The position numbers and the translations under genes were made by a program. This document shows positions 9,086 to 31,204 of a stretch of 32,639 nucleotides of DNA, piece by piece (the first letter of the stretch is position 1; each line of letters opens with the position of its first letter). The notes under the pieces are model-generated. The model was not told the origin of the DNA and ran no database searches. It worked only from the letters and a program-made list of their open reading frames with translations. The stretch comes from a virus: positions 1 to 32,639 of IMG/VR virus record IMGVR_UViG_3300021962_000379. The stretch is one strand, 5' to 3'.

Positions 9086-10192
9086 TTTGTTTAGGTTCTC
9101 CGCCTCTAATCCTTTTTGTTCTAATTGTTTAACATTATTTAATCTTTCTAATCTAAGATCTAATTGTTCTAACAATTTAAGTTGTTCTTCTTTACCCTCA
9201 TTAAGTAAACTATCATAATCCATAGTTAACTCTGCATCTGGTACTTTTAATGCCCCTTGAAACTTACCCCTTACTCTACCTAATGCTTCTTTAAATAACG
9301 CAGTTAAATATCTTCTTATCCATACTCTTGTGGGTTCATTAAGTTGTGAATATTGTAACTTAGATAATGGAACATCATTTGGTAATTTAATAATATCGGG
9401 ATTATCCGTTAAACATTGATCTTTATTTTCGTCAGTAACATCGTAATAGTGATACCATACTTTAGTTCCTGCAAGTCCAATTTGACTATTTACTAATCCC
9501 GCTCCCGCGAAAGATAATCTACTTCCTGGTATAGGCATAAGGTGTAATAATCTAGTACCATTAGGTCCTGCGGTTACTTTATACGATAACTCACTTCTTA
9601 ATAGTTTAGACTTAAGACTGAAATCTTGTGCTCTTAATAATACGTCAAACGCTGGTGCGATATAGAACCCACCATTTCCTAATCCACCACCTTGTCCCCA
9701 TCCTGCGTATGGTACTTGTCCGAATCCACCACCAAAACCGTAGTCACCAAATCCTGCAAATGAATAAAGTGCGTGATCTGTAGAGTTAGGTGTAATCCAT
9801 AATATTTCATTTATTTCTCTTCCTTTCGGTATTTGATATACTTGTTGGTTTTTAACAATGGTTACGTAATCCTTCTTTAATTCCCAAGGACCTCTCTGTT
9901 GTAAACCCACTTGTTTAGAATATGCGTATGAAAAGTTACTTTCGAAATCTAATGATCTTGTAGTCAATGCAAATGCGATATCTACTTTAGTAGCATCTTT
10001 ATCCAACAATGATGACCATTGATTTTCAATTAACCAATCTTGTACCCTTTGTGCATAATCTTCAACTGCAGTGTCTAATAGTGAGTTCATTTGATCCCAA
10101 TCCAACTCAATTTTTCTGATAGGTGCACCTAATCTATGTTTTATCTGAGTAAATAATTCCTCTTTTAAATTATCGTTTAAAGAATTTGGCAT
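9047..10192 (-). CDS. Virion structural protein, probably neck/head-completion (gp13-like)
   Basis: 381 residues. The N-terminal part (LGAPIRKIELDWDQMNSLLDTAVEDYAQRVQDWL, read in pieces) follows the pattern of T4-like neck/connector proteins: a beta-turn-E-L element followed by a helical domain with a xAxxDYxxxxxxWL motif. A central Gly/Phe/Tyr-rich loop (about residues 142-176) is probably flexible or a surface loop. The C-terminal third is helical and charged. Assignment as gp13-like rests on this pattern and on a T4-type gene set nearby; another neck or portal-adjacent protein is possible. It is transcribed from a divergent intergenic gap with the ATATTTAT motif on its strand 16 nt before the ATG. 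It ends 39 nt inside the DNA polymerase gene. Confidence 0.55.
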   Translation of the reverse strand: MPNSLNDNLKEELFTQIKHRLGAPIRKIELDWDQMNSLLDTAVEDYAQRVQDWLIENQWSSLLDKDATKVDIAFALTTRSLDFESNFSYAYSKQVGLQQRGPWELKKDYVTIVKNQQVYQIPKGREINEILWITPNSTDHALYSFAGFGDYGFGGGFGQVPYAGWGQGGGLGNGGFYIAPAFDVLLRAQDFSLKSKLLRSELSYKVTAGPNGTRLLHLMPIPGSRLSFAGAGLVNSQIGLAGTKVWYHYYDVTDENKDQCLTDNPDIIKLPNDVPLSKLQYSQLNEPTRVWIRRYLTALFKEALGRVRGKFQGALKVPDAELTMDYDSLLNEGKEEQLKLLEQLDLRLERLNNVKQLEQKGLEAENLNKSLSYRPLGLYVI

Positions 10193-10208
10193 AGTAAAAT
10201 GTTTATTT

Positions 10209-10216
10209 ATAAATAT
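10209..10216 (-). promoter_or_regulatory. Candidate phage promoter motif for the neck-like gene
   Basis: On the minus strand the sequence reads GATATTTATAAATAAAC, with ATATTTAT 16 nt before the ATG at 10192. It shares the 39-nt gap with a plus-strand copy at 10221-10228, so the gap would fire in both directions. Confidence 0.45.
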
Positions 10217-10220
10217 CTTA

Positions 10221-10228
10221 ATATTTAT
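10221..10228 (+). promoter_or_regulatory. Candidate phage promoter motif, almost abutting the start codon
   Basis: ATATTTAT ends only 3 nt before the ATG at 10232. If it acts as a -7 element, transcription would begin at or next to the start codon, giving a leaderless mRNA. A TATAAATA (T4 late consensus) at 10208-10215 is an alternative element for the same gene. Confidence 0.4.
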
Positions 10229-10231
10229 TAA

Positions 10232-10909
10232 ATGATGAAAAATCTTATTAGAAAAATATTACTCGAGGTCACAGACGATGAAATAGATAAATACGATGAT
10301 GATTTAACTTCACCAGAAATAAGTGTTTCACCTGCCACTGAATTACGTGTTGCACATAAAAAATATAGTTGGGAGGCATATATACCTGAGATTGGTAAAA
10401 AGATTATTTTTTATTTTAATCCCGAACATTGGAATATGTTCGCTAATATGAGGGTTGAGGATGTAGATAAAAAAGGACATGGTAATTTTGGGGATGACGC
10501 ACATAAAGACTACCAAAGATCAATTTTAGATGATCTTGGTGGTGACAGGCACCAAAGTTATTATAATAAGGAAGGTAAGATATTAGGTAGGGGTGATAGA
10601 TATGAATATGTAGATGTTAAAGAGGCAGTTAAAGATGTAAAAGGTTTTAGTGAGGAGGCAGAGAAATTGACAAAAGAATATAAATTAAGAATAGAACAAC
10701 TGACAGTTGAGTATGTTCGTAAAATTAGAGGTTTGAACGATAAATATAATTTTAATAGTAGCGAAGAATTAGATTTGGTTAGTGTAGACAGTAAAGGTAA
10801 TTATAAAAGAGAACGAGACTTTGAAGATGAGGGGGACGGTTGGCACAATCAACCAAGAGAATTTAAAAATGACTACGATATTTATATGAAAGGTAGAAGA
10901 AAAATATGA
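10232..10909 (+). CDS. Protein of unknown function with N-terminal capsid-targeting-like tag
   Basis: 225 residues; two adjacent Met codons (10232 and 10235) are equally usable. The N-terminus MKNLIRKILLE-V is a short basic amphipathic segment ending in L-x-E, like the removable capsid-targeting peptides of T4 internal proteins; six other proteins in the window start in a related way. The remainder is highly charged and mostly predicted soluble. It has a central segment YIPEIGKKIIFYFNPEHW and a likely coiled coil around EEAEKLTKEYKLRIEQL. No known family was recognised. It overlaps the next gene at ATGA, so the two are probably co-translated. Packaging into the head is inferred from the tag only. 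Confidence 0.6.
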   Translation: MMKNLIRKILLEVTDDEIDKYDDDLTSPEISVSPATELRVAHKKYSWEAYIPEIGKKIIFYFNPEHWNMFANMRVEDVDKKGHGNFGDDAHKDYQRSILDDLGGDRHQSYYNKEGKILGRGDRYEYVDVKEAVKDVKGFSEEAEKLTKEYKLRIEQLTVEYVRKIRGLNDKYNFNSSEELDLVSVDSKGNYKRERDFEDEGDGWHNQPREFKNDYDIYMKGRRKI

Positions 10910-11316
10910 TGAGAAAAATAATTAAAAGAATTTTAAAAGAAGAAACTAGCCATAGTTATAAACCATTAAACAATCCTAATGGTTTTGAGGGTACTGATGT
11001 ATATGACGCAAAAGATGAGATTGCGTTAGGTTTGGCTAGAAAGGCATTAAATCACCTTTCTTCTGCTTTAAGAGATGTTGAGTCTGCATTAGAGAATGTA
11101 GAAAGCAAAAAACTTAGAAATCAATTAGAAAAAGTTAGAAATACATTAATGACTGATTATGGTAGGCAAGAGGCTTTCTCTGCTAGAATCAACGATAAAG
11201 ATCATGAAAAAGTTATCAATATGTTAGGTGACGCAATCGATGAGAATAGTAACGAAAACTGGAATTTTAATCTAAATGGTGATCACGACACTAAAGCACC
11301 TGAAGGTGTTTCTTAA
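10906..11316 (+). CDS. Small helical protein of unknown function with N-terminal tag
   Basis: 136 residues, beginning in the ATGA overlap with the preceding gene (ATG at 10906 or 10909). It opens with MRKIIKRILKE-E, nearly the same basic helix and L-x-E site as its neighbour, then diverges completely. Residues about 40-90 form a heptad-like helix (ALNHLSSALRDVESALENV, then KKLRNQLEKVRNTL) that could dimerise. The C-terminus is acidic and Asn-rich. The last 26 nt overlap the glutaredoxin gene on the other strand. No family was recognised; a small internal head protein is a reasonable guess. Confidence 0.6.
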   Translation: MMRKIIKRILKEETSHSYKPLNNPNGFEGTDVYDAKDEIALGLARKALNHLSSALRDVESALENVESKKLRNQLEKVRNTLMTDYGRQEAFSARINDKDHEKVINMLGDAIDENSNENWNFNLNGDHDTKAPEGVS

Positions 11317-13916: not shown

Positions 13917-14948
13917 ATGGGATTACCAAAGAACTATAGAAAAGATTTAAAAATAACCCCACATAAACAAGGGTTTGAACAAAGACAAAGTATCTTAGAC
14001 GATATAGCCAATAAAGGTACGTACTTACCTAAAGGTATCTTACACGAAGATATGGATGGTGAAATGATAAATTATATTACTAACGATATTGATTTGTCTT
14101 TAGCGGGTGAAAAAGTTCCTATTATATTCCTTTCTGCTCAAAGGTGGGCAGAATTTTCTAAAACTTGGCAATATTCTGATATAGATAAAAATGTTAAACT
14201 ACCTTTTATAACAATAGTAAGAAAACCTGACGCACAACAAGGAACAAACTATGCAGGATCTTTTAATATACCAGGTAGACCAACATTCACATATATGAAG
14301 ATACCCACTTGGGACGGTAATAGGAAGGGGTATGACATATATAAAATACCACAACCTATATCTGTAGACATAATGTATGAAGTTAGATTATTCTGTAATA
14401 GAATGAGAGACTTAAATGTAATGAACAGAAAAATGTTGACATCATTTTCATCATTAGAAAAATATATTAGGGTTAATGGACATCCGATACCATTAATTTT
14501 AGATAGTATCGGTGATGAGAGTCAAATTACTAATTTAGATGAAAGAAAATATTACGTTCAGTTGTTCACAATCAAAATGATGGGGTATTTATTAGATGAA
14601 GAAGACTTTGTTGTTACACCTGCAGTTAGTAGAGGTATACAATTTTATGAGATTAGTGAGGAATTATATAGGGCACCATATCAAATAAACGTTGATAACC
14701 AAAACAAAGGTATTTGTATCAACGTTTTATTTAATAGAGGGGTTAGTAGTGTTACTATCCCAATAGAAGTAAGTGCAACTTATACTGATTCTAATTTTAC
14801 TAACGCAAGTTCAGTAATATTTAAAGTCAATGGTGTAACAAAAACATTACCATTTACAGTAAATAATGGTGATGATTTATATATTAAAGTAAATAAAGTG
14901 GATGGTAATTTATCATCTGATGTAGAAATAACTGGAACGATATCATGA
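13917..14948 (+). CDS. Probable tail completion / sheath-terminator-like protein
   Basis: 343 residues from the ATG at 13917, 1 nt after the preceding stop; an upstream TTG (13902) lies inside the previous gene and is not used. Conserved-looking stretches are QPISVDIMYEVRLFCNRMRD, then NRKMLTSFSS, GHPIPLILDSI, KYYVQLFTIKMMGYLL and DEEDFVVTPAVSRG. This is the style of T4-like proximal tail completion proteins (gp15-like), but I cannot confirm it. The last ~85 residues look like an Ig-like beta domain added at the C-terminus (VTIPIEVSATYTDSNF, then VIFKVNGV). It overlaps the giant fibre gene by ATGA. Confidence 0.5.
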   Translation: MGLPKNYRKDLKITPHKQGFEQRQSILDDIANKGTYLPKGILHEDMDGEMINYITNDIDLSLAGEKVPIIFLSAQRWAEFSKTWQYSDIDKNVKLPFITIVRKPDAQQGTNYAGSFNIPGRPTFTYMKIPTWDGNRKGYDIYKIPQPISVDIMYEVRLFCNRMRDLNVMNRKMLTSFSSLEKYIRVNGHPIPLILDSIGDESQITNLDERKYYVQLFTIKMMGYLLDEEDFVVTPAVSRGIQFYEISEELYRAPYQINVDNQNKGICINVLFNRGVSSVTIPIEVSATYTDSNFTNASSVIFKVNGVTKTLPFTVNNGDDLYIKVNKVDGNLSSDVEITGTIS

Positions 14949-17900
14949 GTAGTTGTGACAATTCTAACATAAAGAAAAATTATATAGTAACAGGAGTAGA
15001 GCAAGACATACTTAGTGCTTGTACAGGATTCTACACTAACAACATATATGCATGTAGTGGAAATACAATAAATTTTAACGCAAATATAGATAATTGTGGG
15101 TTTACTATTAACACTTCATTTATAGGGGGTTGTTCACCAATTACAGTTACTGATAGAATGATATTATTAGATGGTTTAACATTTAATAATATAACTAATG
15201 ATAATAGTTTAGATAGAGTACTTGTCATAAATACTGGTGGTACTGTAGAATATAGAGACGTTTCTTCTCTTTTTACAGGATCAACAACATTTGTGACAGG
15301 AACAACATTTAGTTCTAATCAGGCTATTTTATCTAGAAATGATGGTTTTGATGTATTAAAAATAAGTGGTGGTACAAATGTTACTTTATCTAACCCTAAT
15401 ACTAATGAAATTGTTTTTGATGTAATTATACCTCCCGACACTAATACTTTTGTGTCTGGATTCACATATGACAATTCCAACAATTTAACTATTAGAAGAA
15501 ACGATGACGTTAATCTTAGTACGAATATAGGTACAATGTCAGGATTGACAATAAATGGAGATTTATTAGTCACAGGTACAACAAACATAAGTGGTCTAAC
15601 ATCTATTAATAATTCACTAGATGTTTACAATGGAACAATAGGGTTAAGAGACAATGATTATTTTCTACAAGGAACAAGTACTGGGGGAACAAATGTACAA
15701 TTAATAGGGGTATACTCAAACGATGAAATTCTTATAGGTAATCAAGGTTATACCAATAGAATTATGGATGACACCATAGTAGATGGTCAATTATCTGTTT
15801 TAAGTGGATTAACTGTAAATGGACCTCTAAGTGCTTGTACAGGAATTTACACATCTAACATATATGGATGCTCACCAATAACAATTAATGACACTGCAAT
15901 ATTCCAACAAGGAATTGATGTATTAACAGGAGATACAATATTAAAACAAACAAGCGCTACAACAATAACACTAACAAATTTACCAAATTTAAATAATAGT
16001 GCAACAGAAATATTAGCTAGAAATAGCTCAACAGGACTTGTAGAATATCGTGATGTAAATACTATTACACCTGACACAAATACTTTTGTAACTGGTTTTA
16101 CGTATGATAATGTAAATACATTTACAATATCTAGAAATGATAATGTTGATTTAACGTCTACAATTTCAGTATTATCAGGAATTACTTATTATGGTGATGG
16201 TTCTAACTTAAGCGGTATTACAACTACAGATACCTTTGTTACTGGAGGTACTTTCGATAACAATACTGATACAATTACTTTTACCAATAATAGTGGGGGT
16301 ACTTTTAATGTTACAGGAATTACAGATACATTCGTAATCGCAGGAACTTATACTGACTCTACAGATACTATATCTCTATTAAGAAATGATGGTAATTTTG
16401 TAAATATAACAGGAGTTACAGATAATTTTGTTAGTGGTGGTACATATAATATTGGTACAAATGAAATAAACTTTGTAGGTAATTCTTCTGAGACTACTTT
16501 TGATGTTGATTTAAGTTCTTTAATTAGTTCAGTAAGTGGAGATACATTTGTAGTTAGCGGTAACGCAGATGTTGCAAGTTCACAATTAACATTTACATAT
16601 AATACTGGAGGTACATTTACTGTAACAAATTCTGCAGCGTTATTTTCAGATAATGACATAAATGTAACGGGAGGAACATATAACCCATCTAATGGGTGTG
16701 TTACATTCACAACAAATAGTGGTACAACCTTCGATGTTTGTGGTTTCTTAACAGGTATTACTGATACATATGTGACTGGTGGTACTTATAATGAGTCTAC
16801 AGACACTATTACGTTTACAAATACTAGCGGTGGAACATTCAATGTTACAGGTATAACAGATACGTTTGTAACAGGATCATCTGTAACTTCTAATGTATTA
16901 GAAATCACAAGAAACGATTCACAAAAAGTATTACAACTTAGTGGAGGAACAAATATAACTTTAACAGATAATGGTAGTAACTCTATTACTATTGATACTA
17001 TAGTGAGTGGGGGTGGTGCATCAGTTTCATTACCTTGGAAATTTAGTTCTAACACAACAGAAGCTGATCCATCTTCTAAATTTTTTAGATTAAATAATAG
17101 TGTTCTAAGTGCGGTAACAGAAATATATGTAAGTGATTTCACAAATAATAATATTGATAGTAGTTTTATTTTATCCGCATTAGAGGTTGGTGACAATATC
17201 TACATACAACAAAATGATGATGCTTCTAAAGTAGTTCTATTTAGTGTAAGTGCAGCAACTATCGATAATACAGGTTGGTTTACAATACCTGTTGAATACG
17301 AAACTGGTGGGGATTTATTTGGAAACAATAAAGAGTGTGGTTGGGTTTTATTCTCATTAGGTGCACAAAATAATACCGCATCAAATGTTGGGATAGGACA
17401 AGGTGTGTTTAAACAAAAAGTAGGGAATGACTTTGAGTTTCATTCTTTAAGTGGTGGTACTAACACAACAATAAATTTAAGTGGTGATACTATTGTTATT
17501 GATTCTGAAGACACTTATGTTATTGCAGGTACCTACATTGACAACACAGACACAATATCTTTACTAAGAAACGATGGTAATTTTGTAAATATAACAGGAG
17601 TAACTGACACATTTACAACTGGATCTACATATGATAATGGTACTGCATTGGCGACATTTACAAGAAACGATGGAAATTCTTATACATTAGATTTATCTAC
17701 AATAGACGTTAATGATACATTTAGTACTGGCGGTACTGTAACACAAAGTTCATCAAATAACGATAATAATCAAACTATACAAATTGTAGGTAATGATGGA
17801 TTTAACTCTTATAATATAACAGGAGTAACTGATACATTTACTACTGGTGGAACTTATGACAATGGTACTGCCTTAATAACATTTGATAAAAATGATGGTA

Positions 17901-20071
17901 CATCATATAATGTAGATTTAAGTACATTAGATTTAAATGATACATTCATAACTGGATTCACATATAATGACGCTAACACATTTACTTTAAATAGAAATGA
18001 CGGTGTAGATATTAGTACTTCTATTAATATTGTTACAGGTTTAACAGTTAATGGAGATATCGAAATGGGTAATAGTTCTACAAGACAAATTTACTCTACA
18101 GGTGTAAGTGAGATATCATCTATTGAGTTCACTACTAGTGGAACATCAGTTCAGATGAGATGGGATGGTAGTGGTGACAGTACTGTGTTTACTGTAAACA
18201 ACACAGATTTTGCGACATTATCATCAAATAAAACCGCGTTTGGTGGTTTAACATATGGTTCAGACTACTCACCTTACTACACTGATAGATCTTTAATTGA
18301 TTTAGGATACTTTAATTCGAATAATAGATATGTCACTGGTGGTACATATGATAATGGTACTGCATTAATTTCATATTCAGGGGCAAATGGATTCCCTTCT
18401 TTTAGTGTCGATATGTCTTCTTTAGATTTAAATGACACTTATGTAACAGGGGGTACATTAACACAACCAACGGATAATACAAATAGTGGATTAATAAACT
18501 TATTATATAGTCAAGATGTTTCACCATCTACATATTCTATACCATACACAGATACATTTATAACAGGATTTACCTATAACAATAATAACACATTTACCAT
18601 TGTAGAAAATAATGGTGATACATATAGTGTTACATTTAATGAAGTTAGTGGATTAACAGTTAATGGTGATTTAAATGTTACAGGTAACACTTATTTGGTG
18701 GATGTCTCAGGAACCTCTTTATTTACAGATTATATTGATTTTAGAAATATAGGTGCTTCATTACCTACCGATCAACAAGGACGAATCTATTGGGATGATG
18801 ATAATGGTACACTTTCATTAGGAATGTATGGTGGACAAGTTGTTCAACAAATTGGTTTAGAAAAATATTATTATATTAAAAATCAAAGTGGTGCAACAAT
18901 TAGTAATGGTAGAGTTGTTAGAGCGGCAGGAACATTAGGTGCGTCAGGTAGGATATTAGGTGAATATATGATTGCGGATGGTACAATACCTCCTAAATTT
19001 ACATTGGGTATTGCAACAGAAGATATTATTAATGGTGATGATGGTTATGTAACAGAATTTGGTTTAGTTAGGGGAATTAACACCACAGGTACACCATATG
19101 GTGAGGTTTGGAATGATGGTGACATTCTTTGGGTTTCACCTACAATTCCTGGTGGACTTACTAAAGTAGAACCACAAGCACCTAATTTAAAAATAGAAAT
19201 AGCTATTGTTATATACGCAAATGCTAATGGTTCTATTTTCGTTAGACCTAATAGATATCCTTACTTATATGATATACAACAAGTAAACTATTCCGCAGGT
19301 ACAGAAAATAACTTAGATATTTTATTTTGGAATAATTCAAATCAAACTTGGGATAAAACAAATACACCTTCATTTAGTGGGTTAACAATTTATGGTGATA
19401 CCACACAAATAGGTAATTTTAATATCACAGGTAATACTTTACAAAATGGTAATACTACAACAAATGGTAATGTAGATATTATAACCACAGGAGGAACTGG
19501 ATGTACTCTTTCAGTCACTGGAAAAACTTGTTTAGATGGTGATTTAGAAGTTACAGGTAATGTTTTTGTTGTAGGTAACTTAGATTATGATGGTAACTTA
19601 ATAGTAACAGGATCAACCATAATTAGTAGTGGTTTAACAGTATTTAGCGGTGTATCTGCAGATTTTATTACTATCACAACAACACCTACAGAAAATAATG
19701 ATTTAATACAAATCTTAGGTAGAAATTCTTCTACAGGTGATGTAGAATATAGAGATGTTAAAACAATAGGTAATAATATTACAACAGTTACAGGAACAAC
19801 TTACTCCGCCACAACAACTGACGATGTAATTGGTATAGATAGTTCTACTAATACAGTAACACTTTATTTACCTGATTCTGTTTCTTCAGGAAGATTAAGA
19901 TATGATATAAAAGATATTGGGGTTAATTCATTTAATAATCCAATAACAATACAGGCGGCAGGTTCAGATACCATAATAACAACATCAGTAGTTTCTTCTT
20001 TTGAGTTATCCGCTGATGGTGGGGCGGTTATATTAGTTAATACAGGTACAGGACAATGGTGGCAAATGTAA
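14945..20071 (+). CDS. Giant long tail fibre protein built of short repeats
   Basis: 1708 residues starting in an ATGA overlap. Most of the chain (about residues 80-1280) consists of degenerate 25-50-residue modules such as DTFVTGGTYDNxTDTITF and NVTGITDTFVTG. Three VEYRDV modules occur at residues 101, 366 and 1600. Two copies of a Cys module, CTG(F/I)YTxNIY(A/G)CS, lie near residues 26 and 298 and recur in the fibre at 3-1814. A different globular-looking domain follows about residue 1290 (GRIYWDDDNGTLSLGMYGG, then YYYIKNQSGATISNGRVV). The C-terminal tip (VIGIDSSTNTVTLYLP, then NPITIQ, ending in GQWWQM) resembles the tip module of many marine myovirus fibres. It is probably a trimeric host-range fibre. 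No trimerisation chaperone was seen next to it. Confidence 0.8.
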   Translation: MSSCDNSNIKKNYIVTGVEQDILSACTGFYTNNIYACSGNTINFNANIDNCGFTINTSFIGGCSPITVTDRMILLDGLTFNNITNDNSLDRVLVINTGGTVEYRDVSSLFTGSTTFVTGTTFSSNQAILSRNDGFDVLKISGGTNVTLSNPNTNEIVFDVIIPPDTNTFVSGFTYDNSNNLTIRRNDDVNLSTNIGTMSGLTINGDLLVTGTTNISGLTSINNSLDVYNGTIGLRDNDYFLQGTSTGGTNVQLIGVYSNDEILIGNQGYTNRIMDDTIVDGQLSVLSGLTVNGPLSACTGIYTSNIYGCSPITINDTAIFQQGIDVLTGDTILKQTSATTITLTNLPNLNNSATEILARNSSTGLVEYRDVNTITPDTNTFVTGFTYDNVNTFTISRNDNVDLTSTISVLSGITYYGDGSNLSGITTTDTFVTGGTFDNNTDTITFTNNSGGTFNVTGITDTFVIAGTYTDSTDTISLLRNDGNFVNITGVTDNFVSGGTYNIGTNEINFVGNSSETTFDVDLSSLISSVSGDTFVVSGNADVASSQLTFTYNTGGTFTVTNSAALFSDNDINVTGGTYNPSNGCVTFTTNSGTTFDVCGFLTGITDTYVTGGTYNESTDTITFTNTSGGTFNVTGITDTFVTGSSVTSNVLEITRNDSQKVLQLSGGTNITLTDNGSNSITIDTIVSGGGASVSLPWKFSSNTTEADPSSKFFRLNNSVLSAVTEIYVSDFTNNNIDSSFILSALEVGDNIYIQQNDDASKVVLFSVSAATIDNTGWFTIPVEYETGGDLFGNNKECGWVLFSLGAQNNTASNVGIGQGVFKQKVGNDFEFHSLSGGTNTTINLSGDTIVIDSEDTYVIAGTYIDNTDTISLLRNDGNFVNITGVTDTFTTGSTYDNGTALATFTRNDGNSYTLDLSTIDVNDTFSTGGTVTQSSSNNDNNQTIQIVGNDGFNSYNITGVTDTFTTGGTYDNGTALITFDKNDGTSYNVDLSTLDLNDTFITGFTYNDANTFTLNRNDGVDISTSINIVTGLTVNGDIEMGNSSTRQIYSTGVSEISSIEFTTSGTSVQMRWDGSGDSTVFTVNNTDFATLSSNKTAFGGLTYGSDYSPYYTDRSLIDLGYFNSNNRYVTGGTYDNGTALISYSGANGFPSFSVDMSSLDLNDTYVTGGTLTQPTDNTNSGLINLLYSQDVSPSTYSIPYTDTFITGFTYNNNNTFTIVENNGDTYSVTFNEVSGLTVNGDLNVTGNTYLVDVSGTSLFTDYIDFRNIGASLPTDQQGRIYWDDDNGTLSLGMYGGQVVQQIGLEKYYYIKNQSGATISNGRVVRAAGTLGASGRILGEYMIADGTIPPKFTLGIATEDIINGDDGYVTEFGLVRGINTTGTPYGEVWNDGDILWVSPTIPGGLTKVEPQAPNLKIEIAIVIYANANGSIFVRPNRYPYLYDIQQVNYSAGTENNLDILFWNNSNQTWDKTNTPSFSGLTIYGDTTQIGNFNITGNTLQNGNTTTNGNVDIITTGGTGCTLSVTGKTCLDGDLEVTGNVFVVGNLDYDGNLIVTGSTIISSGLTVFSGVSADFITITTTPTENNDLIQILGRNSSTGDVEYRDVKTIGNNITTVTGTTYSATTTDDVIGIDSSTNTVTLYLPDSVSSGRLRYDIKDIGVNSFNNPITIQAAGSDTIITTSVVSSFELSADGGAVILVNTGTGQWWQM
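15440..18650 (+). repeat. Degenerate coding repeats of the giant fibre
   Basis: Repeats centred on DTFVTG(G/F)TYDN are spread through this stretch (for example near 15440, 16080, 16220, 17610, 17850, 17945, 18330 and 18550). Some are nearly identical in DNA: a run of about 29 bases encoding DGNFVNITG occurs both near 16388 and near 17573. The pattern suggests recent internal duplication and gives material for length variation of the fibre. Confidence 0.7.
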
Positions 20072-20123: not shown

Positions 20124-20465
20124 ATGGCATTTTTACCACAAAGAAACTACGTAGAACAAACTTTAGCTAATAATTATAATTTAGGTAATGGTTTAACTGC
20201 GTTCACTAGTGTTAATATTGCGGAGTACAACAAATTTTCTTTTCAAATTAATACTACTGGTTTAAGTGGGTCTAATAGATTTACTATAGAACAAAGTTCT
20301 GATAACGTCAATTGGATACCAATAAATGATACAGTTTATAATTTAGATAGTGGTTCAGGTACCTTAACAATACAAAAAAATGATTTTAGTGGTAAATACA
20401 TTAGAATAAATTTAATTGATGCGGGTAATGGAACTTTAACAATAATTTTAATTGCAAAAAGATAA
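20124..20465 (+). CDS. Small beta-rich structural protein, function unknown
   Basis: 113 residues, predicted all-beta: YNKFSFQINTTGLSG, then NRFTIEQSSDNVNWIPI, then GTLTIQKNDFSGKYIRINL. The SSDNVNW strand-turn is common in small virion beta-sandwich proteins (decoration or tail accessory). It is the first gene of the operon ahead of the paralog array and follows a candidate promoter at 20099. No signal peptide or membrane segment. No family was recognised. Confidence 0.55.
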   Translation: MAFLPQRNYVEQTLANNYNLGNGLTAFTSVNIAEYNKFSFQINTTGLSGSNRFTIEQSSDNVNWIPINDTVYNLDSGSGTLTIQKNDFSGKYIRINLIDAGNGTLTIILIAKR

Positions 20466-20474
20466 TTATAAGAT

Positions 20475-20702
20475 ATGGCAGAACAAATATTATCATATGG
20501 TGAGTTAGTAGATTTAAGTTCTACTTCAGGTGAATTAAATGTAATTGTTGAAAACTTAGGTGATCAAGAAAGTATATTACTAAACCAAATAAGTTTAACA
20601 CAAAAACTAATTCATCAATTAAGAATTAGTAATATGTATAAAGCACACGAAAATGATATGATTATAGATGATAACATTTTTGAAAATGATGAATTAGATT
20701 AA
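20475..20702 (+). CDS. Small acidic protein, function unknown
   Basis: 75 residues, starting 9 nt after the previous stop. The first part (LSYGELVDLSSTSGELNVI) looks beta or mixed. A helix follows (ESILLNQISLTQKLIHQLRIS), then an acidic tail. It could be a small assembly or trimerisation helper for the adjacent structural proteins, but that is a guess from position and helix content only. It reads cleanly in the operon with no overlap to other frames. Confidence 0.5.
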   Translation: MAEQILSYGELVDLSSTSGELNVIVENLGDQESILLNQISLTQKLIHQLRISNMYKAHENDMIIDDNIFENDELD

Positions 20703-20714
20703 AAATAAAAAACT

Positions 20715-21326
20715 ATGGCAACAACAATTGAAGATGGTTCAGGACAAGGGTTTTCTGCAAAAGTAGATCAAGATAACCGTTTGTTTATGAGGGGTGTAAC
20801 AGAAGATGAGTTTGAACACTCAGTTCGTAATGGACGTTCATTTAATGTGAACACACAATTTATTTCTATAACAACTGGTTCTACAACAGAACACGCAATA
20901 TTATACATTAAAAATAATGAAGATACTGATATAGTATTGGGCGCTTGGTTTGTTGGAACTGCGGGTGCATCTGGAACTACTTTTGGTGTTGGTCCATTAT
21001 TAAGTGTTTATTACAACCCAACTGGAGGAAGTTTAATTTCAGATGCAAGTCCTGTAGAAATAGTTAATAGACAAGGGGGTTCTAGTGAAACTTTTGATTT
21101 AACAGTTTATAAAGCAACGGGTCCAAATAAAACAGTAACAGGTGTTGGGACTCCTGTTTTATTTCAGACACATCCAAAGGAAGGAAGAGCGTTTGGTACG
21201 GTTTATCTTTCATTGAAAAAGGGTGCGTCATTAGCAGTCACATATATACCAAATGGTGCTGAACCATTAGAAATTTATACAGGTTTTCAAGGATATAAAC
21301 CAGAATCATTTAATACAGGAGAATAA
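20715..21326 (+). CDS. Array paralog 1: beta-rich structural protein (IxDGSG family)
   Basis: 203 residues. It opens with TTIEDGSGQGFSAKVDQDNR, the signature shared by the array members: I-x-D-G-(S/T)-G, a strand, then N-R-L. The middle has ILYIKNNEDTDIVL and the end LKKGASLAVTYIP. These strands line up with the next three genes. Predicted all-beta, with no signal peptide. Structural role, perhaps head or tail decoration, is inferred from position between fibre and sheath genes. The family has no name that I recognise. Confidence 0.6.
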   Translation: MATTIEDGSGQGFSAKVDQDNRLFMRGVTEDEFEHSVRNGRSFNVNTQFISITTGSTTEHAILYIKNNEDTDIVLGAWFVGTAGASGTTFGVGPLLSVYYNPTGGSLISDASPVEIVNRQGGSSETFDLTVYKATGPNKTVTGVGTPVLFQTHPKEGRAFGTVYLSLKKGASLAVTYIPNGAEPLEIYTGFQGYKPESFNTGE

Positions 21327-21337
21327 AAAGTTAAATT

Positions 21338-21931
21338 ATGAGTACAACAATACAAGACGGGACAGGTACTAAAGTAAAATTAAAAGTAACTGGTGAAAAT
21401 AGAGCTTTAGTACAGGCGGTAACTATTAGTGAAGAAGATAATGCAATTACAAAAGGAGAAGGGTATCAAATTGCTTCAGGTACCGTTTCTTTTACTGGTG
21501 CAACAACAACAGGTGTACTATATATTAAAAACAATGATGATAGAGATTTTGTATTAGATAGATGTGTACTTATTTTAGGTAGTGCGATTGGTGCGGCATC
21601 TGATCAAGATTGGACATTTACAGTATTGAGAAACCCAACTGAAGGTACAACAATTACAAATCAATTAAATGCGGGTGTTTCTAATTCTAATCATGGTTCG
21701 GCTAATACACCAAAATCAACTAATTACAGAGGTGTCGAGGGTGATACAATAACTAATGGTACTGGTGCTGCACAACCAATTAAACAATCTATTGATAGAA
21801 TTATTTTACCATTAGGTAGAAGACTACCAAAAGGTACATCAATTGGGTTTAGAATAACACCACCATCAGGGGTTACATCAACAAAAGCGTTAGTTGTAAC
21901 ACATTGGTGGTATGATGATGCAACAGGATAA
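21338..21931 (+). CDS. Array paralog 2: beta-rich structural protein (IxDGSG family)
   Basis: 197 residues. Signature TTIQDGTGTKVKLKVTGENR, then VLYIKNNDDRDFVLDR, then LPKGTSIGFRITPPSG. It aligns over its full length with paralogs 1, 3 and 4, with closest style to paralog 3 at the C-terminus (PKGxSIGxxITPP). Spacing to neighbours is 11-12 nt with no Shine-Dalgarno sequence. Function unknown; probably a virion surface protein. Confidence 0.6.
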   Translation: MSTTIQDGTGTKVKLKVTGENRALVQAVTISEEDNAITKGEGYQIASGTVSFTGATTTGVLYIKNNDDRDFVLDRCVLILGSAIGAASDQDWTFTVLRNPTEGTTITNQLNAGVSNSNHGSANTPKSTNYRGVEGDTITNGTGAAQPIKQSIDRIILPLGRRLPKGTSIGFRITPPSGVTSTKALVVTHWWYDDATG

Positions 21932-21943
21932 AATTAAATAGAT

Positions 21944-22534
21944 ATGGGATTTCAAATACAAGACGGAACAGGTAGTAATAGAAGAGCTAGAGTAGGTAAA
22001 TCTAATAGACTTTTTGTGGAGTCAACAACAAGAAGTGAAAGAGAAGAAGAAGCTCTTTTAGGTGAGGCATATATCATAGGTACTGGTTTTGTTAATTTAA
22101 CAACATCAGGAACAAGTGCGGTATTATATTTTAAAAATAATGAAGATGTAGATTTAGTAATAACAAGATTTTTAATTGGGGTTAAAAAGAGTGTTGGTGG
22201 TACTGAAAATTTTGTCACAGGTATTATTTATAAAAACCCAACAAGTATGGTTAGTGGTACTGGAAATCCATTGGCAATAAACAACGTAAATTTTGGCTCT
22301 TCTAACACAATTGATTCAGATAGTGAAATTGGGCAACAAGGAGCTTTATTAGCTGGTGGTTCTGCTTATTTAGCGACTGTAGCACCAACTGAAAGTTTAA
22401 CCTCAGAAGATGCTTCAACCATATTACCTAAAGGATCAAGTATCGGTGTATTTATAACACCACCTCCTGGTAATACTAGTATTGATATAAGTGTTGGTAT
22501 AAACTTACATAAATTAACAACCGATTTAACATAA
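21944..22534 (+). CDS. Array paralog 3: beta-rich structural protein (IxDGSG family)
   Basis: 196 residues. Signature FQIQDGTGSNRRARVGKSNR, then VLYFKNNEDVDLVITRFLIG, NPTSMVSG and a segment around FGSSNTIDSDSEIGQQGALL, then LPKGSSIGVFITPPPGN. The NPTS and FGSSNT(I/L)D segments are shared specifically with paralog 4, so these two are probably the most recent duplicates. Function unknown. Confidence 0.6.
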   Translation: MGFQIQDGTGSNRRARVGKSNRLFVESTTRSEREEEALLGEAYIIGTGFVNLTTSGTSAVLYFKNNEDVDLVITRFLIGVKKSVGGTENFVTGIIYKNPTSMVSGTGNPLAINNVNFGSSNTIDSDSEIGQQGALLAGGSAYLATVAPTESLTSEDASTILPKGSSIGVFITPPPGNTSIDISVGINLHKLTTDLT

Positions 22535-22557
22535 TAAAAAATTAAAAATAAAATAAA

Positions 22558-23139
22558 ATGGGATTTGAAATAACAGACGGAACGGGTAAAGGTAACTCAG
22601 CGGGTGTCGATAGAACAAATAGATTATTAGTTAGGAATATTAGTGAGACACTTTTCCAAAACGCAGCGGAAGAAGGTGAAGCCTTTTTTATTGGTACCCC
22701 TATTATAACCGCAACAACCGCAGGTGAAAGTGCTTTAATTTATATTAAAAATAACGAAGACTCTCAGTTAATTTTGGGATCTTTCTTTTTAATTGCTGAA
22801 GCTACGGCAAGTGGTTCACCTAATATGTTTAGGGTTAATTGGTATAGAAACCCTACTTCAATATCTAGTGGTACTGCAATTCCTGCTTTAAATCAAAACT
22901 TTGGTTCTTCGAATACATTAGATGCCGATATTGAATATGGTGCAGAAGGTTCTACTGTGACAGGTGGTTCATTAGCGGCAACACTTTCTTTCCCAATAGG
23001 ACAATTTAATCAATTAGATGCAAATTTAGTTTTAGAAAAAGGTTCTTCATTAGTAGTCACAGTCACACCACCAGCAGGTAATACTAATATGCCAGTACAG
23101 TTCGGTACTAGAACAATTAAATACATAGAACAATATTAA
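22558..23139 (+). CDS. Array paralog 4: beta-rich structural protein (IxDGSG family)
   Basis: 193 residues. Signature FEITDGTGKGNSAGVDRTNR, then LIYIKNNEDSQLILGSFFLI, NPTSISSG, a FGSSNTLDADIEYG segment and LEKGSSLVVTVTPPAGN. The upstream gap is a 23-nt A/T run with no visible ribosome-binding site. Shares the NPTS and FGSSNT blocks with paralog 3. Function unknown. Confidence 0.6.
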   Translation: MGFEITDGTGKGNSAGVDRTNRLLVRNISETLFQNAAEEGEAFFIGTPIITATTAGESALIYIKNNEDSQLILGSFFLIAEATASGSPNMFRVNWYRNPTSISSGTAIPALNQNFGSSNTLDADIEYGAEGSTVTGGSLAATLSFPIGQFNQLDANLVLEKGSSLVVTVTPPAGNTNMPVQFGTRTIKYIEQY

Positions 23140-23145
23140 TAAAAT

Positions 23146-23793
23146 ATGTCAATTAGAACAAATATAGAAGATGGTTCAGGTAACGGATATTTAGCAAAAG
23201 TATCCCCACAAGGTTTTTTATATACACAAGAGGCTCCCTATCCCCCAACTGATGAAGAAACAAAAATTACTGTATATCGAGAATTTTTAACATTAAACAA
23301 TGATGGAACAACAACTGATATGAGGGTTAATGGTTCTACAACACCACAAGAATTCTATATACAAGCAGAACCAAATGTAGACATTTATATCACAACAGTT
23401 TCGTTTATTATTGCGGGTCCCGGTGCTACGTTAAACGAATTTGCCAACTTAGCTGCACTAACAAATGGATGTAGGTTTTATTATGAAGATAATAATGGTG
23501 AGATTAATATTGGAGCCAACCTTGTGTCAAACTTTGAGTTTGTAAGATTGTGTCAAGGTAACCCATCTTTTGGTGGTGGAGCTTCAGCTTTTTTAGCAAA
23601 TAACGTTGTTGGTACTTCCGAAGCATTCATTCCAGTATTTGATTTTAGAAACTTTGGATTTAAATGGGGGTTAAAATTAACATCAGCGACATTAAATAGA
23701 TTAGTTTTAGAGGTTAATGATAATTTAACTCCTAGTGCTAATTTAACTGGATTTAATGCAATCGCGTACGGATTTAGAAGAGTTTTAACTTAA
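23146..23793 (+). CDS. Array paralog 5: divergent beta-rich structural protein
   Basis: 215 residues. The opening TNIEDGSGNGYLAKVSPQGF still carries the family signature, but the body differs: LTLNNDGTTTDMRVNGST, EFYIQAEPNVDIYITTVSF, then a SNFEFVRLCQGNPSFGG block. It pairs closely with the next gene. The strand EFYIxxExxxDIxIxxVSF seems to replace LYIKNNEDxDxVL of paralogs 1-4. Function unknown; a second subfamily within the array. Confidence 0.58.
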   Translation: MSIRTNIEDGSGNGYLAKVSPQGFLYTQEAPYPPTDEETKITVYREFLTLNNDGTTTDMRVNGSTTPQEFYIQAEPNVDIYITTVSFIIAGPGATLNEFANLAALTNGCRFYYEDNNGEINIGANLVSNFEFVRLCQGNPSFGGGASAFLANNVVGTSEAFIPVFDFRNFGFKWGLKLTSATLNRLVLEVNDNLTPSANLTGFNAIAYGFRRVLT

Positions 23794-23795
23794 TT

Positions 23796-24467
23796 ATGTC
23801 TAGAAATGGTAAAATTCTATATAAAAACTTATCTCCAAGTGTAAATAAAGATGGGTTATTATTTGAGATTGACTCTACTTTTCCACCAGTAGGGGAAGAA
23901 GTACAAAATATAATATACGTCCAACCACTAACATTAAACAATGATGGTATTACTACTGATATGAAAGTAGATGGGTCGACAACTGTACAAGAATTTTATA
24001 TAGAATCGGAAAATGATTATGATATTATTATAAATTCAGTTTCTTTTTTTATTGGTGCAGAAACAAATGTTATTGATTTATTTGAGTTTGGGGCAATAAA
24101 CGGAACATTATCAAATGGATGTCAATTAGTTTACGAAAGTTCAAAATACGGTGAAATATTTATTGGGGATAATTTAAATTCAAATTTTGAGCTACTAAGA
24201 ATGTGTAATATGAATCCAGAATTTGGTTTGACTTCAAATGAAGCTTTTGAGATTGTACAAACATTTTCAAATAATGATCGTGGATACTTCTTCATATTAA
24301 AGTTTTCCAACTATGGTTACGAATCAGAATATAGGGGAGGTTTAAGACTAAAGAAAAATGAAAAAGAAAGATTAGTTTTTAAAATTAGAGATGATTTAAA
24401 TTTTATTGTATCTGAACTATCTAGTCTTAATGGAACTGCATATGGATATAAAACAGTTACTAGTTAA
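23796..24467 (+). CDS. Array paralog 6: divergent beta-rich structural protein
   Basis: 223 residues, starting 2 nt after the previous stop. It has lost the N-terminal I-x-D-G-S-G signature (it starts SRNGKILYKNLSPSVNKDG), but shares LTLNNDGITTDMKVDGST, EFYIESENDYDIIINSVSFF, SNFELLRMCNMNPEFG and the final NGTAYGYK with paralog 5 (NAIAYGFR). Probably a diverged copy with a different attachment end. The last 8 nt overlap the mini-gene on the other strand. Confidence 0.58.
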   Translation: MSRNGKILYKNLSPSVNKDGLLFEIDSTFPPVGEEVQNIIYVQPLTLNNDGITTDMKVDGSTTVQEFYIESENDYDIIINSVSFFIGAETNVIDLFEFGAINGTLSNGCQLVYESSKYGEIFIGDNLNSNFELLRMCNMNPEFGLTSNEAFEIVQTFSNNDRGYFFILKFSNYGYESEYRGGLRLKKNEKERLVFKIRDDLNFIVSELSSLNGTAYGYKTVTS

Positions 24468-24618
24468 TCTGGTCACCATACATATCAGTCTTAGGTTTAC
24501 AAGTTTCTTTAATTAATTTTTCTACAAATGCAAACATCTTCAAACCATTCTTTTCACAATATTCTTTTAAAAGTTTGTGGGTTTGTGGTGTAATTTTTAA
24601 GTTTTTATCCCTTTTCAT
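24460..24618 (-). CDS. 52-residue protein, possible ribbon-helix-helix-type regulator
   Basis: The minus-strand ATG at 24618 opens a 52-codon frame ending at 24460. The sequence starts KRDKNLKITPQTHKLLKEYC and continues EKNGLKMFAFVEKLIKETC. A short beta-like segment (LKIT) followed by two helices, with the TPQTHKLLKEYCEKNG pattern, resembles small phage ribbon-helix-helix-type proteins; this is inference. It is the only gene on this strand in the 13.9-32.6 kb region. It has an ATATTTAT motif 5 nt before its ATG and inverted and direct repeats just upstream, which fits an autoregulated DNA-binding protein. It overlaps the last 8 nt of the 24467 gene. Confidence 0.6.
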   Translation of the reverse strand: MKRDKNLKITPQTHKLLKEYCEKNGLKMFAFVEKLIKETCKPKTDMYGDQIN

Positions 24619-27673: not shown

Positions 27674-27946
27674 ATGAAAATTAAAAAAAACGGAAAAGTA
27701 ATTACACTTTCAGAAAGTGATTTACGTAGAATTGCAAAGAGGTATTTAAATGAAAGTGACGATTGTTTACCTAAATTTGCAGGAGAATCTGCATTAGATA
27801 AGGCAAAATGTTGTGCAAATAAAGCAGGAATGTCTGAGAAAGAACTTACTAATGTTAAAGACATCAAAGAATTGGCACAAATATTAATGAAAAAAGGTGG
27901 AGATTTTGCTAATTGTCTTTTTACCGTACCAAATGTGTTCGCTTAA
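27674..27946 (+). CDS. Small Cys-containing protein with N-terminal tag
   Basis: 90 residues. The start ITLSESDLRRIAKRYLNE-S is the S-E-S-(D/Q) type of the tag family found in seven proteins of this window, again ending in L-x-E. After the presumed cleavage site the body is a compact helical domain with four Cys (positions 31, 47, 48 and 81; for example AKCCANKAG), so it may bind metal or form disulfides. No family was recognised. It stands alone between the sheath hairpin and a strong terminator. No ATATTTAT is present, only ATTTAT at 27644. Confidence 0.6.
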   Translation: MKIKKNGKVITLSESDLRRIAKRYLNESDDCLPKFAGESALDKAKCCANKAGMSEKELTNVKDIKELAQILMKKGGDFANCLFTVPNVFA

Positions 27947-28015: not shown

Positions 28016-28840
28016 ATGAATATTAAACTTACAGAATCACAATATAAATTATTAAAGGAGTTTAAAAAAAAATCTTATTCATTTGATTGGGATGATAATA
28101 TATTAATCATGCCAACAAGAATTTATTTAGAATACAACCTTAATAATGTCGGTGTATGGGCACCCGTATCAGTATCCACAGAACAATTTAGAAGTATTAG
28201 ACATAAATTGGGATCTGAGTTTAGATACCCAAATAACGACATATTACAAGCGTTTAAAGATTTTAGAGATTATGATGCGTTTATTAACGATACAAAAAAT
28301 GCGTTATCTCATAATAGATTAGGTCCAAGTTTTCAAAAATTTAGGGAGGCATTAATAAGTGGTAGTGACTTTTCTATTATTACCGCAAGATCTAATCCAC
28401 CACAGGCAATTAAAGAAGGAATTAAAATTATAATAAACAATGCACTTAGTTTTACTGAAAGAAAAGAGATGGAAAAAAATCTTAATGGGTTGACAATAGA
28501 TGAGTATTTAAATTTACAAGATTATCATCCAGTATCTTCAGTAGAATTTGCGAATCAATTTGGGTTAGATGTTAGTGGTACTAAACCTGAGGAGGGTAAA
28601 AAAATTGCGTTTAAAAGTTTTGTAGACAGAGTGGTAAATCAAATATCTAAAATTAAAGATGATGAAGAATTTGAAGGTATTAGTGTTGGATTTAGTGATG
28701 ATGATGAAAGTAATGTAGAAGTTATAGAAGATTTAATTAGAAATGAATTAAAAAATTTATACCCAGAAATTAATTTTATTATTTATGATACATCAGATCC
28801 AAAAGATACTAAAAAGAAAAGAATAATAATTAAAAAATAA
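28016..28840 (+). CDS. HAD-superfamily phosphatase-like protein with N-terminal tag
   Basis: 274 residues. Residues 1-15 (MNIKLTESQYKLLKE-F) are a tag of the S/T-E-S-Q type with an L-x-E end. The body has HAD motifs: motif I SFDWDDN (D24, D26), motif II IITARS (T123), a Lys in the KKIAFK region (about 195-200) as motif III, and motif IV GFSDDD (228-230). These are the residues for aspartyl-phosphate chemistry. The substrate is unknown; nucleotide or polynucleotide 3'-phosphatase activity is known in phage HAD proteins. An unusual cap or insertion lies between motifs I and II (about 35-115). Its combination with a head-targeting-like tag suggests that the enzyme might travel in the virion. It lies between the tail sheath and tube genes. 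Confidence 0.8.
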   Translation: MNIKLTESQYKLLKEFKKKSYSFDWDDNILIMPTRIYLEYNLNNVGVWAPVSVSTEQFRSIRHKLGSEFRYPNNDILQAFKDFRDYDAFINDTKNALSHNRLGPSFQKFREALISGSDFSIITARSNPPQAIKEGIKIIINNALSFTERKEMEKNLNGLTIDEYLNLQDYHPVSSVEFANQFGLDVSGTKPEEGKKIAFKSFVDRVVNQISKIKDDEEFEGISVGFSDDDESNVEVIEDLIRNELKNLYPEINFIIYDTSDPKDTKKKRIIIKK

Positions 28841-28912: not shown

Positions 28913-29401
28913 ATGGCAGATTTATTAATGAGAATGCCTGTTCCTTACGAACCGTTAAGAAAGAATAGGTTTATTTTGAGATTCCCAGATGAATTGGGAA
29001 TTCAAGAATGGTGGGTTTCTACAACATCTAGACCTAAATATACGAGTCAGGAAGTGGAAATTCCATTTTTAAATACATCTACTTATGTGATTGGTAGATT
29101 TAATTGGGAATCTATTTCCGTAACATTTAGAGATCCTATCGGACCTTCCGCAACACAAGCGTTGATGGAATGGGTACGTTTACACTCTGAAACTGTAACA
29201 GGTAGACAAGGTTACGCAGCGGGTTATAAGAAAGACGTAGAATTAGAGATGTTAGACCCAACAGGTGTTGTTGTTCAGAAATGGATCCTACAAGGTACGC
29301 AATTGAATGACGCAGATTTTGGTTCATTAGATTATTCATCTTCTGATTTGGCGGATATTACATGTACGCTCAGGTTTGATAGGGCGATAAACGTGTTTTA
29401 G
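28913..29401 (+). CDS. Tail tube protein (gp19-like)
   Basis: 162 residues, the usual size of T4-like gp19. Typical features are the N-terminal YEPLRKNRFILRFPDELG, then the strand SISVTFRDPIGPSATQAL, and the end GSLDYSSSDLADITCTLRFD. It polymerises into the inner tube through which DNA passes. It is flanked by a candidate late promoter and a strong terminator, so it is probably its own, highly expressed unit. Codon use looks somewhat more GC-rich (CGT, GAC) than that of its low-expressed neighbours, as expected for an abundant protein. Confidence 0.96.
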   Translation: MADLLMRMPVPYEPLRKNRFILRFPDELGIQEWWVSTTSRPKYTSQEVEIPFLNTSTYVIGRFNWESISVTFRDPIGPSATQALMEWVRLHSETVTGRQGYAAGYKKDVELEMLDPTGVVVQKWILQGTQLNDADFGSLDYSSSDLADITCTLRFDRAINVF

Positions 29402-29492: not shown

Positions 29493-29813
29493 ATGAAAAA
29501 GAATATAAATAACATAACTGAAGAGATAGTTAGAATTAAGTCTCTTTTTGGTGAAAGTAGATTATCTGGTAATCTTGTTGAAGAATCTGAGGATGATTCT
29601 CCTTTGGGTGAGTACGGAATATTTGATGATATTGAAAATGATTTGATGGAGATGTCTGATCGTGATAGATCTTATTATTTGCAATCAATAATATCTTTTT
29701 GTCAGGATTTATTGTATAATTCTGAATATGATGATGACGATGATGATGACGATGATGATGATAAGTTAACTAATAGGACTATCTTTGGTGGTGGTGAATA
29801 TGATAATCTATAA
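29493..29813 (+). CDS. Small acidic protein with N-terminal tag and poly-Asp run
   Basis: 106 residues. The first ~30 residues (NNITEEIVRIKSLFGESRL, then GNLVEE) match the start of the 29918 protein (NLNEEIKRIKSLFTEERMFG, NLVEQ), so they are the same tag type, with F-x-E at the presumed cleavage point (E21). Residues 80-90 are eleven consecutive Asp, coded by alternating GAT/GAC. The rest is acidic and Tyr/Ser-rich. An acidic packaged protein could help to offset or bind cations or DNA-binding proteins; that is speculation. It has its own terminator downstream (29841-29876). Confidence 0.6.
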   Translation: MKKNINNITEEIVRIKSLFGESRLSGNLVEESEDDSPLGEYGIFDDIENDLMEMSDRDRSYYLQSIISFCQDLLYNSEYDDDDDDDDDDDKLTNRTIFGGGEYDNL

Positions 29814-29840: not shown

Positions 29841-29876
29841 AAAAAATCCTTATCATTAATTTGATGAGGATTTTTT
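29841..29876 (+). terminator. Intrinsic terminator
   Basis: AAAAAATCCTTATCA-TTAATT-TGATGAGGATTTTTT is a 15-bp stem with one G-T pair and a T run, 27 nt after the 29493 gene. A-T runs on both sides would let it work in both directions. Confidence 0.88.
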
Positions 29877-29887
29877 GTTATTTAGAT

Positions 29888-29895
29888 ATATTTAT
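29888..29895 (+). promoter_or_regulatory. Candidate phage promoter motif for the 29918 gene
   Basis: GATATATTTAT, with the octamer 22 nt before the ATG at 29918. TATATATATAAAA follows. It lies just after a terminator, as expected for an independent unit. Confidence 0.45.
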
Positions 29896-29917
29896 TATAT
29901 ATATAAAAAAATTTATT

Positions 29918-31204
29918 ATGAAAAGAATTAATAACTTAAATGAAGAAATAAAAAGGATTAAATCTTTATTTACTGAAGAAAGGATGTTCGGTAATTTAGT
30001 GGAACAGGAAGAAGTTTTATCTGAGGGAAATGTTCTTAAATTGGGATCCAAAGGTGAAGACGTTGGTGCATTACAAAACCTTTTAAAAATAGAACCTGTT
30101 GACAATAAATTCGGTAATATTACTAAAGGTAAAGTAGAAGAATTCCAAAAAAACAACGGACTTAAGGTAGATGGTGTTGTTGGTGAGGAAACTCTAAAAG
30201 CGATAATTAAAAAATTTACTAATAAGAATGAATCTGTTGATTTAAATGAAGATGTCTCTGACGATATCAATAAACTTAGTAAAACAATTGTAAATCAAGA
30301 GGTTTTAGATGATAATGGAAATCCATTACCTACTTCTGATTGGGTAAAGTCATTAGATATGTTTAAAAACGCCCCAACTTTAGATACTAAAAATCAACCT
30401 GAACAAATTAAAGGGGAGTTAGAGAGTGAACCAGTAAAAAACAAACCTGAAGAAATAAAAATAAATAACCAAAACGATAAAAAAAGTGGGGATAGTGAAG
30501 GTGAAAACGAAAAGCAGGATGATGGTTCATTAAATAAAAAAAGAGGTGGTACAGGTACAGAAGCCAAAGGACAAGGAATGGATCAAAAAGATTTTAATAA
30601 ATCTAGATCCGACATAGAATCTGAAAGAGGTGGGTTAAGTGTCTTAGGTATGAAACTAGATAGAGTTGACATTATTAATAATAAAGCGGTTTGTAGAAGA
30701 CTTTTGAATAGTATGATTAAATTGTCTAAAAATGGTAAAACGAGACGAGAGTTAGAAAATTATGAGTTTGATGATAAGGGTGGTAATGCTCATACAGGTA
30801 AAGAATATATTGAGCGTATTGAGTGGTGTTTAAGTAATTTTTATAATGTTTATGAAAAAGAAGGGTGGTCAGGTAAAATTGATACTTTATTACAAACATG
30901 GAAAATACCTATGCCTGAGAAAGTTTCTAATGCGGTTCAAGGAGAAGTTTATAAAATAATTAGTGATGATAATAATCATATAGGTTGGATTAAAAAAGTT
31001 AAGAATAATAAATTTAGGTTTAAAGGGAAGGGTGTTGCACCATTATTAGATAATACAAAAGGTAAAGCTGGTAAATTTAACCCTAAATATGAAAAAAATG
31101 TTTATAAGGCAATAAATGTTAATCCTAATGAATATGATATTGTGATACAAAAATCTAAAGATCAAGAAAAGGATTCGGGAATATTTGTTTTATCCCCAAA
31201 ATAA
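29918..31204 (+). CDS. Peptidoglycan-binding-domain protein with N-terminal tag and unknown C-terminal domain
   Basis: 428 residues from the ATG at 29918. A start at 29861 would read through the terminator hairpin and the promoter motif and is rejected. Residues 1-20 are the tag (EEIKRIKSLFTE-E). Residues 37-100 are a PG_binding_1-type domain: VLKLGSKGEDVGALQNLL, FGNITKGKVEEFQKNNGL, KVDGVVGEETLKAI. A long charged linker (about 105-225) leads to a C-terminal domain (about 235-428) that I do not recognise; it contains two Cys (CRRLL and EWCLSNFY) and an Arg/Lys-rich region. It may act on or attach to the cell wall during entry or lysis. A head-packaged, wall-binding protein is an inference from the tag plus domain. 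Confidence 0.75.
   Translation: MKRINNLNEEIKRIKSLFTEERMFGNLVEQEEVLSEGNVLKLGSKGEDVGALQNLLKIEPVDNKFGNITKGKVEEFQKNNGLKVDGVVGEETLKAIIKKFTNKNESVDLNEDVSDDINKLSKTIVNQEVLDDNGNPLPTSDWVKSLDMFKNAPTLDTKNQPEQIKGELESEPVKNKPEEIKINNQNDKKSGDSEGENEKQDDGSLNKKRGGTGTEAKGQGMDQKDFNKSRSDIESERGGLSVLGMKLDRVDIINNKAVCRRLLNSMIKLSKNGKTRRELENYEFDDKGGNAHTGKEYIERIEWCLSNFYNVYEKEGWSGKIDTLLQTWKIPMPEKVSNAVQGEVYKIISDDNNHIGWIKKVKNNKFRFKGKGVAPLLDNTKGKAGKFNPKYEKNVYKAINVNPNEYDIVIQKSKDQEKDSGIFVLSPK

Follow-up and report, generated by a model that had tools for sequence, protein, structure and literature searches.

Six tandem genes of an uncultured tailed phage belong to a portable cassette and may encode subunits of a virion-surface assembly

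Introduction

Why would a phage carry six adjacent, anonymous genes for related proteins, and what might these proteins build? The question is raised by a 32.6-kb virus record (hereafter the window, meaning the whole stretch of DNA analysed), in which six open reading frames on one strand span exactly positions 20715-24467 (Table 1). The window also encodes a tail sheath (at 24764), a tail tube (at 28913), a DNA polymerase, a helicase and a gene product with weak similarity to head-tail adaptors, and it groups with contigs of which several bear a T4-type Gp23 capsid gene. An earlier note on this DNA described the six as tandem paralogs of an unnamed beta-rich structural family and proposed that they form a hetero-oligomer, serve as alternative decoration proteins or constitute a reservoir of surface variants.

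Results

Sequence comparison divided the genes into the two subfamilies that had been proposed. Genes 1-4 (family A) matched one another with E values of 1e-17 to 1e-40 and genes 5-6 (family B) with an E value of 6e-40, shuffle z-scores ranged from 24 to 52, and the homology was full-length within each group. The six neighbours are genuine duplicates of ancient origin. Gene 6 was nearest to the second B gene of the related contig L012, with 48% identity as against 41% to gene 5. Between the families, single sequences linked only genes 1 and 5 (E 0.001, z 5.6), and deep profiles of 64 A and 18 B members aligned with an hhalign probability of 92.5 and an E value of 5e-7 over the N-terminal ~80 residues only. 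A separate search with the B profile also recovered A genes from further contigs (E about 1e-5), and genes 1 and 5 were 78% identical across 46 nt of the DNA that encodes the arm. These matches indicate that A and B have a real N-terminal arm in common, of the form I-x-D-G-x-G...A-x-V...L. The opening motif I-x-D-G-(S/T)-G was present in genes 1-5 and missing from gene 6, as the earlier note had read it; the terminal KG-x-S strand that it ascribed to the whole set was found in genes 1-4, while genes 5 and 6 end differently.

Table 1. The six-gene array and the three genes upstream of it in the window
Feature	Coordinates	Strand	Product and remarks	Lineage or closest relative
w13	14945..20071	+	1708-aa repeat-rich fibre-like protein directly upstream of cassette; only weak PHROG matches; cassette membership uncertain	
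w14	20124..20465	+	113-aa protein; weak F5/8 type C (galactose-binding-like) likeness (Pfam F5_F8_type_C, E 2.5e-4, under curated cut-off)	
w15	20475..20702	+	75-aa protein with predicted C-terminal helix/coil; cassette component k; seed of k profile	
Gene 1	20715..21326	+	family A, 203 aa; N-terminal arm at about residues 1-27	L015_A2, L006_A2, L012_A2
Gene 2	21338..21931	+	family A, 197 aa	L008_A2, L015_A1, L009_A1, L007_A1
Gene 3	21944..22534	+	family A, 196 aa	L009_A3, L011_A4, L012_A4
Gene 4	22558..23139	+	family A, 193 aa; A gene adjoining terminal class; AlphaFold pLDDT 92.8	L033_A2, L006_A4, L009_A4
Gene 5	23146..23793	+	family B (terminal class), 215 aa; arm present	first B of L012, 77% identity
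Gene 6	23796..24467	+	second family B copy, 223 aa; opening signature lost	

Scans of IMG/VR, together with one genome scan, yielded 70 distinct cassettes after repeats had been removed, nearly all of them on uncultured viral contigs. Their order was fixed: a small protein with a short predicted C-terminal helix (k) was followed by one to four A genes and then by a terminal gene of class B (~215 aa), C (~143 aa) or D (~355 aa). The three terminal classes were never mixed within one of the 70 cassettes, and the intergenic gaps were mostly between -4 and +25 nt. Exceptions were an A match after C in L078, two D matches in L029, a helix protein between two A genes in L014, and L103 and L138, which have no recognised terminal gene; L012, like the window, carries two B genes. 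The profile of the helix motif, built from 12 small proteins that included w15, found its non-seed matches almost exclusively directly upstream of A genes and detected k in 41 of the 70 cassettes; for most of the rest, a helix of like appearance was judged by eye to close the product of the upstream gene, sometimes behind a larger domain. The six genes belong to a portable gene cassette of many unrelated uncultured tailed phages. The earlier account had caught the A and B genes but neither w15, which recurs as a member of the cassette, nor the exchange of one terminal class for another.

Contig L051 carries at 8160-10618 a complete cassette composed of a helix protein gene, two A genes and a D gene. 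This contig, the sole one to come from the genome scan, is filed as a Thermoplasmatales archaeon MAG and could be either a phage binned there in error or a virus of archaea.

Across the 70 cassettes, the strict IxDGxG motif lay within the first 20 residues of 111 of 136 A, 14 of 31 B, 9 of 26 C and 4 of 9 D proteins, and its rate was 0.0 in 20-residue segments taken from residues 40-120 of these proteins. The A-C and B-C profile matches rest on the N-terminal part as well, and B and D have their C-terminal domain in common. If the proteins docked at a shared site, one arm joined to differing outward domains would be the expected outcome.

The window comes from a T4-like phage, and its cassette is placed with a neck-side gene before it and the tail sheath gene after it. 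The fibre-like w13, whose relatives precede the cassette in L007, L008, L011, L012 and L033, is possibly a carrier of the cassette or possibly just its neighbour; it holds many T-x-F-x-T-G-G-T-Y-D-type units, and its C-terminus looks by eye like a fibre tip. In T4-like relatives, w14 is kept directly before w15. In Microcystis phage Mel-JY01 and in the 484-kb phage LR756508, a w12-like gene adjoins the sheath gene or nearly so, and neither w13-w15 nor A or B genes stand between them; therefore the cassette and w13 look inserted in the window lineage, or lost from the other two phages.

Several further features of these genomes were recorded. Phage LR756508 (L049, 22464-28424) carries two sheath-like proteins side by side, both of which match the sheath of the window. 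Between gene 6 and the sheath gene, a minus-strand reading frame of 51 codons (24465-24618; MKRDKNLKITPQTHKLLKEYCEKNGLKMFAFVEKLIKET...) looks like a ribbon-helix-helix-type protein. The T4 late-promoter-like sequence TATAAATA occurred at chance level. Outside the cassette, the proteins encoded at 10232-10909, 10906-11316, 27674-27946, 28016-28840, 29493-29813, 29861-31204 and from 31208 onward, an endolysin-like protein among them, open with a similar short amphipathic segment that ends in a [LIF]-x-E-like tripeptide and presumably resembles the capsid-targeting segments that are cut by the prohead protease in T4.

Among relatives, the place of the cassette suggests that its products act in the virion. 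Of the recognised genes upstream of it, the nearest encoded the major capsid protein in nine contigs (L017, L025, L026, L031, L034, L036, L067, L078 and L080), the capsid proteins belonging to several different PHROG families of unrelated types, and a P22-type head closure protein in seven (L043, L044, L045, L063, L065, L086 and L090), counts that are not exhaustive as the neighbour survey covered chosen proteins; in L027 the nearest was the portal, followed by the scaffold. Thus the cassette stands in head-morphogenesis gene blocks in a strong pattern which is not universal: the neighbour in the window is the sheath, in L016, L024 and L029 the cassette is arranged differently with respect to terminase and portal, and in L068 a tail-fibre-like gene lies upstream of it. 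The cassette of L037 precedes the tape measure gene, not tail-tip genes, and in L043-L045 a needle-like coiled-coil protein comes before it.

The history of the A copies was read from a tree of 133 A proteins, in which cassette position clustered more than did shuffled labels, near-copies contributing to this signal. In a tree of the T4-like subset, each A copy of the window grouped with copies from other phages, and a topology holding the four window copies together was rejected (AU p=0.000175), as it was for L009; a recent tandem amplification of A was set aside on this ground. The order of the lineages differs between phages. On these trees, the A duplications are older than the phages that carry them.

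The AlphaFold model of family A was confident and jelly-roll-like, nearly all strands, and that of family B was beta-rich and less certain (pLDDT 79), so that the description as a beta-rich structural family fits both the models and the relatives in head-morphogenesis blocks. Among predicted viral proteins the A model had its best match in A0A516M9T5 (TM 0.86, 32% identity), followed by many uncharacterised phage proteins; its PDB matches were weak (TM 0.2-0.4), headed by the binding domain of a cyanophage short tail fibre and continuing with many viral jelly-roll capsid proteins. The fold by itself gives no function, jelly rolls serving many roles. Neither PHROGs nor Pfam had a family for any of the six proteins, and sequence searches of the PDB gave no match to them. 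No known decoration or head-fibre family was matched, the 64 A members giving one weak Hoc-like match (E 0.031), nor was any tail-fibre family match supported for the six proteins; the cassettes were mostly head-side and not regularly at the tail-tip end. When named phages (50,697 records) were searched by tblastn, A, C and D gave no confident match and the consensus B found only Vibrio phage PS25B.1. A literature search found no description of such a cassette.

Discussion

These observations incline us, by a modest degree, to the view that the products of these genes are subunits of an assembly on the virion surface, located on the phage head or at the head-neck junction, with several differentiated A proteins and one terminal type making up a defined hetero-assembly. 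In such an assembly, the common N-terminal arm of ~30 residues would dock both the A proteins and the terminal B, C or D protein, their differing beta domains would face outward, and the C-terminal helix of the small upstream protein may anchor or nucleate the set. Most simply, the product would be a complex of decoration proteins or short fibres with host surfaces or other ligands as its targets. We favour this head or neck assembly because the grammar k-A(1-4)-B, C or D is fixed and tightly spaced, because one arm is joined to different C-terminal domains (in the A-B, A-C and B-C profiles and in the motif counts), because capsid, head closure or portal is the nearest recognised upstream gene, because a confident all-beta A model goes together with old, maintained paralog lineages, because the structural neighbours of that model are mostly uncharacterised phage proteins and viral jelly-roll proteins, and because the head fibres of the crassvirus PhicrAss001 anchor by short N-terminal segments (PMC10172136). 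The weak PDB fold matches and the cassettes of L016, L024, L029 and L068, which are not head-side, argue against this reading, and an appendage of the neck or tail would fit equally well the window cassette, which adjoins a fibre-like gene and the sheath.

The main rival, which we consider possible though rather unlikely, is that the proteins are tail- or neck-mounted adhesins, that is, accessory receptor-binding proteins riding on an adjacent fibre, which would be w13 in the window and the needle-like protein in the P22-like relatives. The adjacency of the fibre-like w13, the needle-like protein in L043-L045, the tail-fibre-like gene of L068 and the cyanophage short-tail-fibre domain that heads the PDB fold matches of A all speak for it, but the closest recognised gene upstream of the cassette is that of the major capsid protein and not a tail gene in nine contigs, and the placement of the L037 cassette also disagrees with it. 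Late non-structural or secreted proteins, absent from the virion, would be quite improbable products of these genes, given that their position in the head-assembly blocks of several unrelated phage types, their linkage to a small helix protein and their beta-rich folds all fit structural proteins better.

The tandem copies might instead have arisen by recent amplification and serve as a store of interchangeable surface variants, as the variation of A copy number from one to four and the changing order of lineages could suggest; this we judge very improbable, as the window copies do not group together, nor do those of L009, and each lineage has been kept across several phages. Since the A copies of the window are old, separate lineages common to related phages, differentiated subunits are favoured over recent variants. 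Of the three proposals of the earlier note, the hetero-oligomer and the decoration proteins are favoured by the fixed order of the genes, by their close spacing and by the long-standing divergence of the paralogs, and the reservoir is disfavoured.

The hetero-assembly on the head or neck finds its closest working analogy in PhicrAss001, whose head fibres gp21 (a trimer) and gp29 (a dimer) are anchored by N-terminal residues 1-38 and 1-58 and point their C-terminal domain outward, a beta-sandwich in gp29 (Nature 2023; PMC10172136). The likeness lies in two different small fibre proteins on one capsid, with short N-terminal anchors and outward domains. It stops short of a demonstrated sequence relation, and the gp21 and gp29 genes are single-copy, without an A tandem, terminal grammar or helix protein partner. 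The decoration protein Dec of phage L (PMC6449081) and the decoration/linker proteins and capsid fibres of phage 7-7-1 (PMC12796354) are, like the cassette proteins, small and beta-rich, and capsid decoration and fibre proteins bear a further likeness to the cassette in that many relatives of the window cassette have its genes near the capsid gene. The cassette differs from them in its several paralogs and in matching no PHROGs or Pfam family, and we infer its virion location.

Single proteins that resemble cassette members do occur in named phages. ORF57 of Pantoea phage LIMEzero (length-matched to BFVD entry F4N9W0) has an A-like predicted structure (TM 0.69) and a weak sequence match (E 9e-5 in a small set), and p0030 of Vibrio phage PS25B.1 has a B-like C-terminal domain (E 7e-12); both are annotated as hypothetical, lack the IxDGxG arm and have no recognisable cassette around them. 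The small genes neighbouring the fold matches in LIMEzero and CVT22 were considered as counterparts of the helix protein and rejected as unlike it.

In summary, our work places six anonymous genes in a defined module whose rules can be tested. We tentatively propose, while giving it somewhat less than an even chance, that this module is a previously undescribed and horizontally portable multi-subunit head-appendage system, composed of a helix anchor, one to four differentiated A subunits and one exchangeable terminal subunit with a common docking arm, employed among uncultured viruses by phages of T4-like, siphovirus-like and P22-like kinds, on contigs of up to 300 kb, and with no recognised equivalent in isolated phages. 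The cassette helps to annotate many genes of uncultured phages that are at present called hypothetical and, if it does encode a head appendage, one modular surface complex would be plugged into phages with unrelated capsids, showing how virion surface functions spread.
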